This document shows positions 49,244-55,378 of a DNA stretch of 64,000 bases, one piece after another. The DNA lies in the NCBI RefSeq assembly GCF_001571405.1, contig NZ_BCNX01000008.1, positions 124,001 to 188,000 on the forward strand. Reading direction: 5' to 3'. Numbering within the stretch: position 1 is the stretch's first letter; every line of letters begins with the position of its first letter. The DNA comes from Methanoculleus thermophilus (GTDB taxonomy: Archaea; Halobacteriota; Methanomicrobia; Methanomicrobiales; Methanoculleaceae). Under the pieces are notes generated by a model. It ran no database searches. It was not told the origin of the DNA and saw only the letters and a program-made list of their open reading frames with translations. A program made the translations under genes and the position numbers.

Positions 49244-51250
49244 GTGGACCTTCTAACCCAGGTATGCAACGTCCTGCTCTGGGCCGGGCTCATCAAACTT
49301 CTCCAGATGACCCTCTGGCCCAGCCTCCGCCAAACACTTGGCGACTACGCCTATCCGGCGGCATACCCGGCCTCCCTCCTCCTCTTTGCCCTTGCGACCT
49401 GGTACTGCGGCTTCTTCCGCATCCCGGTTGTCCTCGCCCTCCTTCTCTTCATTCTCCTCGGGATCTGGGGCATCCGGCGGGGGGACTACTGGATCCCCGG
49501 GATCCGGGGCAATCTTACCTGGGACGCGGTCTTCCTCGTCGGGTTTCTCTTCGCGCTTGCCGTCCGGTTCACGAATCCGCCCATCAACTACTTCAGCGAA
49601 CAGTACATGAACCACGCCTTCATCGCGAGCATCATCCGTGAACCGGTCGTGCCGCCGCTCGATCCCTGGTTTGCGGGAGGAGATCTCACCGTCTACTACT
49701 ACCTCGGCCACTGGCTGATGGGCACTCTTTCGATCGCCACCGGCATTCCATCGGAGGTGGCTTTCAACCTCGTCCCGGCCACGGTCTACGGGACGGCGTT
49801 CGTCGTCCTCTACGCCCTCGGCCGCCTCCTCCTCGATCGCTACCGATGGCTCCCCCTCGCGGTCCTCCTCATCGTCCCGCCGTCGGTTCTCTGGTCGCTC
49901 GCCGCGGGCGCCGATATCTACCAGGCCTTCCAGGAGACCAACTGGATCATTCATGGTGCCCGGGTCGAGTTTCCGGTCTTCTCACTCATCCTCGGGAACG
50001 TCCACGCCTTCGAGATGGCTCTCTTCAACGAGGTCTTCCTCATCTTCCTCCTCGGGTTTGCATGGTGCCGGTGGGGTGGGCTCGATCTCCGGGGGCGGGG
50101 GGCGCTCGCCCTCCTCCTTGCCCTCTCCATCGGCTCGATGCCGCTCCTCTCCTCCTGGGATGCTCTCGTCTACGCACCCCTAGTCGCGATCTTTCTCCTC
50201 GTGCTCGCTCTCCGTGAGCGGGACCGCTCCACACTCATGGCCGCCCTCTTCGTCCCCGCGTTCGCTCTTGCCCTCTACCTCCCCTACTACTTCCACCTCG
50301 AGCCTGCGGGTATCGGCGGGATCGGCACCGGGTTTCCCCCCACCGACCCGCTCGCGTTTCTCGCGGTCTGGGGCGGGTTTCTCGCTCTCACCTACGTCGC
50401 CGTCGCCCGGGATATACGCCGCTCCCCCTTCCTGCTCGCCGTCGCCGCACCGGCCCTCATCAGCGGCTACGTGGCTCTCGCGGTCATCCTCGTGCCGCTC
50501 GTCTATCTTCTCGTCCGGCGGGAGCGCTCGTTTGCCGACCTCCTCTGCATCGCCGGCCTTGCGGTCCTCGGCTTCTGCGAGGTCGTCTATCTTCAGGAGA
50601 TGCTCGGGGGCGACTACAGCCGGTTCAATACAATCTTCAAGTTCTACTTCGATGCCTGGATTTTGCTCGGGACCGGCACCATTCTTGCTGCCGCCGGCTG
50701 GCTTTCCGGGCGGCGGCCGATCCCGGTATCCCGGTGGCTTGCACTCGCCGCCTCCGCTGCCCTCATCCTCGCACCGGTTGCCCTCAACATCGAGATCGGC
50801 CGGGGGCTCCTCGGGATCGAGTACCCTCCGGCGGGCTACCACACGCTCGATGGGCTTGCCTACCTTGATGCCACGCGACCCGCGGAGGCCGCGGCGATCG
50901 ATTTCCTGCGGACGCTCGACGGTGACCACCGGATTGTCGAGGCGGAGAACGGCGATTATGGCTATTACTCCCGGATATCGTCTCTTACCGGTATCCCGAC
51001 GATTCTCGGCCAGAGGAGTCACGAACTGACCTGGCGGGGGAACGGCCCCTGGTATACAGAGCGCCCGGCGGACATCCGGGCGATCTACGAGGACCCAGAG
51101 CGTTCTCTCGCGCTCATGGAGAAGTACAACGCGACCCTCCTCTACGTCGGCGAGCCCGAGCGCGAGCGCTACGACGTCCGACTCCCAGACCAGGGACTCA
51201 CTCTGATCTATGATGAGGGTGGGGTTCGGATCTATGAGCGGGTTGGATAA
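49244..51250 (+). CDS. DUF2298 large membrane protein
   Basis: 668 residues with about 14 helices, matching the archaeal DUF2298 (YYY) family. Marks are the short conserved YFSEQYMNHAFIASIIREP, then PLDPWFAGGDLTVYYYLGHW and a C-terminal outer domain with DHRIVEAENGDYGYYSRISS and TILGQRSHELTWRG. The plan resembles membrane glycosyltransferases (GT-C), with an early-loop acidic residue and a large outer tail, so a lipid-linked sugar donor is plausible. GTG 49244 is the only start opening the first helix. It has no clear neighbours in function. Confidence 0.83.
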   Translation: MDLLTQVCNVLLWAGLIKLLQMTLWPSLRQTLGDYAYPAAYPASLLLFALATWYCGFFRIPVVLALLLFILLGIWGIRRGDYWIPGIRGNLTWDAVFLVGFLFALAVRFTNPPINYFSEQYMNHAFIASIIREPVVPPLDPWFAGGDLTVYYYLGHWLMGTLSIATGIPSEVAFNLVPATVYGTAFVVLYALGRLLLDRYRWLPLAVLLIVPPSVLWSLAAGADIYQAFQETNWIIHGARVEFPVFSLILGNVHAFEMALFNEVFLIFLLGFAWCRWGGLDLRGRGALALLLALSIGSMPLLSSWDALVYAPLVAIFLLVLALRERDRSTLMAALFVPAFALALYLPYYFHLEPAGIGGIGTGFPPTDPLAFLAVWGGFLALTYVAVARDIRRSPFLLAVAAPALISGYVALAVILVPLVYLLVRRERSFADLLCIAGLAVLGFCEVVYLQEMLGGDYSRFNTIFKFYFDAWILLGTGTILAAAGWLSGRRPIPVSRWLALAASAALILAPVALNIEIGRGLLGIEYPPAGYHTLDGLAYLDATRPAEAAAIDFLRTLDGDHRIVEAENGDYGYYSRISSLTGIPTILGQRSHELTWRGNGPWYTERPADIRAIYEDPERSLALMEKYNATLLYVGEPERERYDVRLPDQGLTLIYDEGGVRIYERVG

Positions 51251-51282
51251 CCTTTATCGATACCTCTCCATAGGGAGGGGCC

Positions 51283-53172
51283 ATGACACGAGCAGTCGTA
51301 GTCATGGTATCCGTGCTCGTCCTCATCGCTCTGGCAGGCGTTGCCGGGGCGCAGGTGAGCCCGGATAATGAGACCAACATGACGCAGACACCCGCTCCCG
51401 GGATCCCGGGCGGGAACTTGACGAACGCAGGATCGCCCTATGCAGCGGTGTTTGAGAACAATACATCCGTCACCCGACTTATTGAGGATGAACCGCTCAA
51501 CGTGAGTCTCGAACCGATTGCCGAGGGTTTTGTCGCCCCGGTGATGCTCACGCACGCCGGCGATGATTCGGGCAGGCTCTTTGTCGTCGACCAGATCGGG
51601 ACGGTCTCGATCATCTATCCTAACGGCACACGCGCCGAGGAGCCGTTCCTGGACGTTCGAGATCGTCTGGTCGACCTCGATCCGTCGTTTGATGAGCGCG
51701 GTCTCCTCTCGATAGCCTTCCACCCCGAATTCCGGGAGAACGGGAGGGTCTTTGCATTCTACAGCGCACCCCTCCGCGAGGGGGCGCCCGAGGGCTGGAA
51801 CTGCACGAACCGTCTCGTGGAGTTCCAGGTCGATCCCGAGAACCCCGACCGGGTCGACATGACCTCGGAGAAGATCCTGATGGAGATCGACAAACCGCAG
51901 TTCAACCACAACGGCGGGAGCATCGGCTTTAGCCCCCGTGACGGCTACCTCTACGTCCCGCTTGGCGACGGTGGGGCAGGAGACGATAACGGGACCGGCC
52001 ACACGCCAGTGATCGGGAACGCTCAGGATCTCACAAAGATCTACGGCAAGATGCTCCGGATCGACGTTGACAACGTCACCGCCACGAACGCAACACCGCC
52101 GGAGAACGCTACCTGGACGACGGCGGCCGGCACCCTCTACGGCATCCCGGCGGACAACCCGTTCGTCGCAAACACGAGCATCCCACCCGAGATCTACGCC
52201 TACGGTCTCAGGAACCCCGCTTACCTCCGGTTTGACGCCGAGGGCAACGCCTACGTGGCCGACGCCGGTCAGGAACTCTTTGAGGAGGTTGATATCGTCA
52301 CGAGGGGCGGAAACTACGGATGGCGCATCATGGAGGGAACCCACTGCTTCGACCCGGAGAACCCCAGGGTCCCACCGGCAACCTGCCCGACGAACGGCTC
52401 CTCCGGCGATCCCCTGATCGGCCCCATCATCGAGGGCGGACATGACCTGGGTGTCGTCTTCGTCGGCGGCGGCATCTACAACGGCACGACGCTCCCGGAC
52501 CTTGCGGGACGCTACATCCTCGGCTACTGGAGCAACAACTTCGCCACCGGGAATGCAACCCTCCTCGCCGCAACCCCACCTGAGGGCTGGGACCCGTCGG
52601 CCGTTCCCGACTCCGCCGAGAACCTCACGCCCGAGAACATCGCAATGTGGAGGCTAGAGAGGCTCAACGTGAACGGGACGCCTGCCGGGACCGTAGAGGC
52701 CTTCCTCCTCGGGTTCGGTGTGGACGAGTCCTCGGAGATCTACGTGCTCACGACCGACGATGGGGGACCGGATGCATCCAACATGACCGGGAGGGTCTGG
52801 AAGCTCGCCCCGGCGAACGTGACGGCGACCCCGACCGCAACACCGACTACAGCACCGCCCCCGCCCCCTGCCGCCGGGGGTGGCGAGAGTGTGACGGTCG
52901 ATATCGCGGCTGAGAACATCGAGTTCGATACGGAGACGATCACGGTCCCTGCGGGCGCAGAGGTGACGATGAACTTCGATAACCGGGATAGTGCCCCTCA
53001 CAACGTCGCGATCTACACAGACTCCTCGGCGATGACACCGATCTACATCGGCGAGATCATCACCGGCCCGGGCCAGGTGACTTACACCTTCACGGCGCCG
53101 TCGGAGCCCGGAACCTACTTCTTCCGGTGCGATGTGCACCCCTCGATGAACGGGGAGTTCATCGTGGAGTAG
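51283..53172 (+). CDS. exported PQQ-glucose/sorbosone dehydrogenase-like propeller fused to cupredoxin
   Basis: 629 residues. A signal peptide of about 23 residues ends in AGAQ. A six-bladed propeller (GSDH family) spans about 70-500, with FNHNGGSIGFSPRDGYLYV, GKMLRIDV, EIYAYGLRNPAYLRF and DAGQELFEEVDIV. A TPTATPTTAPPPPP linker leads to a cupredoxin domain (about 541-629). Its copper ligands are His in APHNVAIYT and Cys, His, Met in FRCDVHPSMNG, spaced as in amicyanin. It would oxidise a sugar or aldehyde outside the cell and could pass electrons to copper. Fit with strict anaerobiosis is puzzling. A duplicated cupredoxin lies just downstream. Confidence 0.85.
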   Translation: MTRAVVVMVSVLVLIALAGVAGAQVSPDNETNMTQTPAPGIPGGNLTNAGSPYAAVFENNTSVTRLIEDEPLNVSLEPIAEGFVAPVMLTHAGDDSGRLFVVDQIGTVSIIYPNGTRAEEPFLDVRDRLVDLDPSFDERGLLSIAFHPEFRENGRVFAFYSAPLREGAPEGWNCTNRLVEFQVDPENPDRVDMTSEKILMEIDKPQFNHNGGSIGFSPRDGYLYVPLGDGGAGDDNGTGHTPVIGNAQDLTKIYGKMLRIDVDNVTATNATPPENATWTTAAGTLYGIPADNPFVANTSIPPEIYAYGLRNPAYLRFDAEGNAYVADAGQELFEEVDIVTRGGNYGWRIMEGTHCFDPENPRVPPATCPTNGSSGDPLIGPIIEGGHDLGVVFVGGGIYNGTTLPDLAGRYILGYWSNNFATGNATLLAATPPEGWDPSAVPDSAENLTPENIAMWRLERLNVNGTPAGTVEAFLLGFGVDESSEIYVLTTDDGGPDASNMTGRVWKLAPANVTATPTATPTTAPPPPPAAGGGESVTVDIAAENIEFDTETITVPAGAEVTMNFDNRDSAPHNVAIYTDSSAMTPIYIGEIITGPGQVTYTFTAPSEPGTYFFRCDVHPSMNGEFIVE

Positions 53173-53300
53173 GGGGAGACACACCCTCCCTCTTTTCGAA
53201 CTTGATACACTGGAGCAACCTTTATCGTTCTCGATCGCACCGTCTGGCCCATGGCACGACCGACCATAGTCATGGAAACGACCGCCGTGGTGGTGGGCGC

Positions 53301-53597
53301 ATGACCCCGCAGGCGACAATCGATATCGCGGCCGAGAACTTTGCCTTCAATAAAAAGAGGATCACCGTCCCCGCGGGTGCAGAAGTGACGATAAACTTCG
53401 ATAACCGGGACGAAGGCATCCCGCACAACGTTGCAGTCTACACGGACTCTTCCGCGGCCACCGCGATCTCTATAGGGGAGATCATCACCGGACCGGCGCG
53501 GGCGACCTATACGTTCACAGCGCCCGCAAAGCCCGGAACCTACTTCTTCCGGTGCGACGTCCATCCCTCGATGAACGGGGAGTTCATCGTGGAGTAG
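53301..53597 (+). CDS. orphan cupredoxin, duplicate of the upstream C-terminal domain, detached from its signal peptide
   Basis: 98 residues closely like the cupredoxin end of 51283-53172: IDIAAENFAF, TVPAGAEVTINFDNRDEG and FFRCDVHPSMNGEFIVE with the same ligands (H42, C85, H88, M91). Upstream, the leader of the larger gene is also copied: AACCTTTATCG, then ATGGCACGA...ATAGTCATGG at 53251, reading MARPTIVMETTAVVVGA and a stop at the very base where this ORF's ATG begins, but 50 bases out of frame. It therefore looks like a secreted cupredoxin whose signal peptide has been shortened and frameshifted away. As it stands it would be cytoplasmic. Confidence 0.7.
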   Translation: MTPQATIDIAAENFAFNKKRITVPAGAEVTINFDNRDEGIPHNVAVYTDSSAATAISIGEIITGPARATYTFTAPAKPGTYFFRCDVHPSMNGEFIVE

Positions 53598-54596: not shown

Positions 54597-54776
54597 ATGA
54601 AGACATACCGCTGCTCGATATGCGGGCATATCTATAACCCCTCGACCGGTGATGCGGATATTCCGCCGGGAACCGCGTTTGAAAACCTCTCTGACGACTG
54701 GCGCTGCCCGGTCTGCCTTGCCGAGAAGAGCAAGTTTTCCCCGTTCGACTCGCCGCTCGCGAGGCTCGGGCTCTGA
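54597..54776 (+). CDS. rubredoxin
   Basis: 59 residues with the full rubredoxin pattern [10 protein letters not shown] and [13 protein letters not shown], which holds one Fe-4Cys site. It is an electron carrier for peroxide and superoxide reduction in anaerobes. ATG 54597 starts MKTYRC. It is divergent from UbiA, and TATA-like TTTAAATTCG lies near 54566-54575. Confidence 0.95.
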
Positions 54777-54895: not shown

Positions 54896-55378
54896 ATGCA
54901 GAAGCGCTGGCTAGTTCTTGCGGCAGTACTCGCGGCCTGCTGCATTGGGGCAGTCTCCGCCCAGGAAGCCGTGGGGATGAATGCAACCGAGAACGCCTCG
55001 ATCCAGGTGACGGATCAGATGATCGAGGGCGATGCGGTCGTAGGGAACGTCACGATCCGCGAGGTCGTGAGCAACGGGACCGGATGGCTCGTTATTCACA
55101 ACAATCTCTTCGGGCATCCCGGCGGGGTCATCGGCTATACGCCGGTCGAGCCCGGGATGAATGAGAATGTCACGGTCACCATCCACACCTTCGTCGCCAC
55201 CGATGCCCTCTTTGCCGTCCTGCACCATGACGCTGGTGAGGCGGGCGTCTTTGAATACCCCGTCCCCGACGTCGAGCAGAGGGCGGAGGGCGAGATCGTG
55301 ATCGTGCCCTTCAACGTCACGGCGGAGAATGCCACCCTGCTCAACCTGACGGAACTCTCTTCCGGCGGCAGGACCTGA
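54896..55378 (+). CDS. exported DUF7282-like protein
   Basis: 160 residues: a signal peptide (LVLAAVLAACCIGAVSA) and a beta-sandwich domain (ASIQVTDQMIEGDAVVGNVTI, GWLVIHNNLFGHPGGVIGYT) typical of archaeal secreted DUF7282 proteins. The TATA box CTATATATAATC at 54841-54852 precedes it and a GGAGGTCGAAG ribosome site is present. The function is unknown; many are linked to surface proteins. Confidence 0.8.
   Translation: MQKRWLVLAAVLAACCIGAVSAQEAVGMNATENASIQVTDQMIEGDAVVGNVTIREVVSNGTGWLVIHNNLFGHPGGVIGYTPVEPGMNENVTVTIHTFVATDALFAVLHHDAGEAGVFEYPVPDVEQRAEGEIVIVPFNVTAENATLLNLTELSSGGRT

Follow-up and report, generated by a model that had tools for sequence, protein, structure and literature searches.

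A conserved cupredoxin without a signal peptide in Methanoculleus, apparently an old partial copy of a neighbouring dehydrogenase gene

The window analysed here, a stretch of 64,000 nucleotides from the 2.2 Mb genome of the methanogen Methanoculleus thermophilus, contains a gene (gene 1) encoding a signal peptide, a glucose/sorbosone-dehydrogenase (GSDH) domain and a C-terminal cupredoxin domain, and beside it a small gene (gene 2) that consists of a single cupredoxin domain with 77–78% identity to the C-terminal domain of gene 1. We consider it fairly probable that gene 2 stems from an old partial duplication, that the hydrophobic leader was lost and that the result is a cytoplasmic cupredoxin without a leader, whose translation probably proceeds by termination-reinitiation. 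No earlier report of gene 2 was found in literature searches. The features referred to below, all on the + strand, are as follows.

51249–51258, +: gene 1 promoter-like TATA element, AACCTTTATC, lying 34 bases 5' of the gene 1 ATG (motif scan)
51283–53172, +: gene 1, GSDH-type dehydrogenase of 629 aa, predicted to be secreted (signal peptide and profile matches)
about 51283–51351, +: gene 1 signal peptide MTRAVVVMVSVLVLIALAGVAGAQ, hydrophobic core with Kyte-Doolittle (KD) value of 3.5 over 11 residues
52891–53169, +: C-terminal cupredoxin domain of gene 1 (profile search)
53217–53226, +: gene 2 copy of the promoter-like element, AACCTTTATC, lying 34 bases 5' of the short-ORF ATG
53251–53304, +: short leader ORF, MARPTIVMETTAVVVGA and stop, a remnant of a gene-1-type leader; the TGA of the ORF and the ATG of the cupredoxin overlap as ATGA
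53289–53295, +: Shine-Dalgarno-like GGTGGTG, 5 bases 5' of the cupredoxin start
53301–53597, +: gene 2, cupredoxin of 98 aa lacking a signal peptide, with His42, Cys85, His88 and Met91 as ligands

Gene 2 proper begins at 53301; a longer, mechanically delimited ORF from 53127 begins within gene 1. It scores 46.1 bits against PF13473 (Cupredoxin_1, cut-off 27) and 38.1 bits against PF00127 (Copper-bind, cut-off 21.2), and its product is predicted to be a copper-binding type-1 cupredoxin of about 100 residues. The four ligands are invariant across 16 orthologues and were seen by eye in all 22, with the C-x2-H-x2-M spacing of amicyanin. An AlphaFold2 model (pLDDT 87) predicts a Greek-key beta-sandwich, whose best Foldseek matches in the PDB were auracyanin, rusticyanin and amicyanin (E about 1e-6 to 1e-8), the closest solved structures being auracyanin and amicyanin. 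Gene 2 is like the type-1 cupredoxins amicyanin, plastocyanin and auracyanin in fold, size and His...Cys-x2-His-x2-Met ligands; it falls far under the NCBIfam cut-offs for amicyanin and plastocyanin, and was rejected as amicyanin proper (29.4 bits compared to an equivalog cut-off of 110.2). Pairwise dN/dS between the window gene and its orthologues is 0.12–0.37 (median of all pairs 0.28), about equal to the 0.27 of the secreted gene 1 domain; the gene 2 frame is not decayed, and purifying selection acts on it.

No signal peptide was found in gene 2, where hydrophobicity near the N-terminus peaks at a KD of 1.3 over 11 residues compared to 3.5 for the gene 1 leader and 3.2 for a paralogous lipoprotein, nor by inspection in any of the 22 orthologues. 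Since gene 2 carries no export signal, its product should remain in the cytoplasm, a location predicted from the sequence. Characterised type-1 cupredoxins function outside the cytoplasm, and in this respect gene 2 differs from them. The secreted and lipoprotein cupredoxins of Methanomicrobiales belong to the same domain family and occur as paralogues in the same genomes, but these have a signal peptide or a lipobox (LAAGC) and gene 2 has neither. The most likely role of the product would be that of a cytoplasmic electron carrier or a copper-holding protein, with low confidence as to which of the two.

The initial annotation had regarded copper proteins in an anaerobe as notable in themselves. 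However, cupredoxins are already known from methanogens and are not unusual: Methanosarcina acetivorans has Copper-bind matches, and there are five here, the genome encoding three secreted-type cupredoxin domains besides gene 2 and one weaker match. In M. barkeri, cupredoxins are raised during interspecies electron transfer (PMC6315138); these have a transmembrane helix, whereas gene 2 has none. The M. thermophilus genome also contains an open frame of 836 residues that has two HMA domains and is probably a copper-transport ATPase, and a second cupredoxin locus (G000:C3:77053-79746; L003, L004) encodes two secreted-type proteins in open frames of 315 and 804 aa. Loci of this kind are present in many genomes of the genus, in several of them with lipoprotein cupredoxins nearby.

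The region upstream of gene 2 repeats the promoter-like element of gene 1 together with the first codons of its leader. Of the first 27 bases counted from the ATG, 20 agree, and over positions -36 to +27 the match is 40 of 63. For the 1,644 other ATGs of the window, anchored and compared identically, the corresponding means are 9.2 and 18.4 and the maxima 16 and 30. The similarity also holds within relatives: in L126, for example, 26 of 33 bases match, and no control exceeds 20. When the two leaders were aligned locally and set against mononucleotide shuffles, significance was only moderate (score 25, shuffled mean 16, maximum 30), and it is the ATG-anchored control that is decisive for their likeness. 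Apart from one unrelated site, the window has the TATA motif pattern only in front of genes 1 and 2, and the exact promoter-plus-start pattern is found in 11 of the 35 genus genomes, once per genome and always at gene 2. TATA-to-ATG spacing at gene 2 is 33–36 bases across 22 genomes, varying by single bases. The earlier proposal that gene 2 carries copies of both the leader and the last domain of its neighbour is supported, in that gene 2 has both ends of a GSDH-type gene; this is consistent with the proposed origin from an internally deleted gene copy, which is right in outline. The best reading is that gene 2 goes back to an old, incomplete copying of a GSDH-type gene at the same locus, with the middle missing, in which the promoter and first leader codons would have been joined to the cupredoxin domain and the hydrophobic part of the copied signal peptide lost. 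As the layout is shared, this loss would have preceded the split of the 22 genomes.

Gene 2 is flanked by DUF2298 and UbiA prenyltransferase genes in nearly all regions examined in the genus (a DUF2298 match was not seen beside it in L052), and is present whether or not gene 1 or a second GSDH gene lies alongside. The interval between DUF2298 and UbiA holds zero, one or two GSDH genes, fused to a cupredoxin or not, with gene 2 kept in the regions examined; there are two GSDH genes in L121 and L133, and GSDH genes without cupredoxin in L122, L123, L126 and L132. Judged from these gene arrangements, GSDH genes turn over at a fixed DUF2298–UbiA site. A rubredoxin gene (54597–54776 of the window) lies close to the UbiA gene, as does a gene for a DUF7282 protein with a leader-like N-terminus (54896–55378), and this redox-flavoured neighbourhood of rubredoxin, DUF7282 and UbiA is conserved in several relatives. 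In L118 (G005) the DUF2298 gene was matched as two overlapping segments in different frames, which suggests a frameshift or an assembly error.

The donor of the copy may have been either gene 1 or the other GSDH type. In the cupredoxin tree the split between gene 1 and gene 2 is weak (support 62/0), and local gene conversion may be blurring it. Blocks of raised identity between the two genes within a genome reach 0.92–0.95 over 60 bases in L130 and L124 and are also present in L133, and in the window 33 identical bases are shared by the gene 1 domain and gene 2 up to the stop codon (53140–53177). These patterns suggest local conversion between the neighbouring genes.

Gene 2 was detected in 22 of the 35 Methanoculleus genomes and not detected in the other 13. 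The copied leader, which runs from 53251, does stop out of frame at the cupredoxin start, as was first noted, its TGA (53302–53304) being one base out of phase with the ATG at 53301, and a short ORF of 12, 16, 17 or 21 codons terminating in ATGA or GTGA on the cupredoxin start is found in 20 of the 22 genomes (in L115, for example, 12 codons with an ATGA overlap). In all 20 of these unfused genomes the RTGA overlap is preceded, 5 bases earlier, by the consensus GGNGGTG, relatives having GGGGGTG or GGAGGTG in place of GGTGGTG, and the 16S 3' end of the window's genome contains the anti-Shine-Dalgarno sequence CACCTCCT. In the remaining two (L118 and L133), differing deletions have removed the Shine-Dalgarno-like element and the start codon, so that the cupredoxin now follows the leader ATG in frame; the fused products begin MARTTVITTTVAIAAEN and MVQKTAGRVTVAIAAEN, and both lack a signal peptide.

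From one sequence the out-of-frame leader looks broken, yet across the genus it is the rule. The initial annotation proposed that a secreted cupredoxin had been made and then damaged. The homology of leader and domain and the stop in the leader frame speak for this, but as a recent event in M. thermophilus that left a pseudogene we regard it as highly improbable. The layout is common to 20 genomes, in which an apparently cytoplasmic, leaderless version is under purifying selection with its ligands intact, a finding that the initial annotation itself had named as counting against its reading; the two fusions join in frame at different breakpoints and gain no signal peptide by it; and an intact secreted orthologue is present at the gene 2 locus in none of the 22 genomes. 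The conserved layout refutes lineage-specific damage, and a sequencing error at the gene 2 leader is likewise excluded, since the same out-of-frame arrangement is conserved across the genus. Nor do we give much credence to programmed frameshifting, by which the leader would be joined to the cupredoxin to yield a longer or exported form. Both frames overlap at the stop, and some short ORFs are mildly hydrophobic (KD 1.8–2.3 over 11 residues), but this is well under the true leaders of the locus (3.2–3.5), no signal peptide arises in the natural in-frame fusions either, and the third base of the conserved element, GGNGGTG, varies; a conserved slippery run was not found, and the frameshift link was rejected on this ground.

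A further rival reading is that the cupredoxin is translated directly from its own Shine-Dalgarno-like element and ATG or GTG, the short ORF being a silent relic without a role. This is unlikely in our estimation, although the element is strong and occurs in 20 of 20 unfused genomes, and could initiate the cupredoxin without the short ORF, which counts against coupling. Purifying selection on the short peptide was sought and not found: pairwise differences at codon positions 1, 2 and 3 are 0.26, 0.28 and 0.20, showing no codon-position signal, hence the peptide itself is unconstrained, and the absence of stops within the short ORF in 20 genomes is uninformative given a chance expectation of 43%. 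Against direct translation, the CATG at the short-ORF start is invariant in all 22 genomes and is the sole run of four invariant bases between -45 and +26, and in a neutral, substitution-only simulation on the gene tree the ATG was kept in all 22 in none of 3,000 runs. Changes in short-ORF length maintain the frame and the RTGA overlap, whereas the stretch 5' of the ATG shifts by single bases, an argument that rests on few length changes. Both deletion variants use the leader ATG in frame, and the homologous ATG of gene 1 begins a real signal peptide. The short ORF is therefore likely to be translated, while a function for its peptide is unlikely.

Archaeal transcription usually starts about 27 bases from the TATA centre. 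The short-ORF ATG lies at about this distance, so the mRNA should be leaderless, with the ATG at its expected 5' end. Under termination-reinitiation, which we prefer, ribosomes would load at that end, terminate at RTGA and reinitiate on the cupredoxin, which starts at an ATG or GTG with what appears to be its own Shine-Dalgarno-like sequence; this course is the most likely one because the stop of the short ORF overlaps the cupredoxin start. Experiments in Haloferax volcanii have shown coupling at overlaps of this kind (PMC6728339), and the ATGA coupling described there and in E. coli resembles gene 2 in its 4-base overlap and preceding Shine-Dalgarno-like motif, but the upstream frame is a full gene in those systems and a signal-peptide leftover of 12–21 codons here. 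Against this reading, only about 15% of mRNAs are leaderless in those methanogens that have been studied (PMC7531240). It is possible, and we put it forward tentatively, that a signal-peptide remnant now serves as a translated leader ORF and delivers ribosomes to a cupredoxin that the same event switched from secreted to cytoplasmic.

Copper is kept out of the cytosol, and for this reason cupredoxins are as a rule found outside the cytoplasm. If our reading is true, the conserved leaderless cupredoxin of this methanogen genus would exemplify in nature the relocation of a domain by duplication, and there would be a genus-wide cytoplasmic protein of the blue-copper type in a strict anaerobe. The 20 coupled layouts and two direct fusions also form a natural set of variants for reinitiation on an mRNA whose expected 5' end is its first start codon, a process that has been little studied in methanogens.
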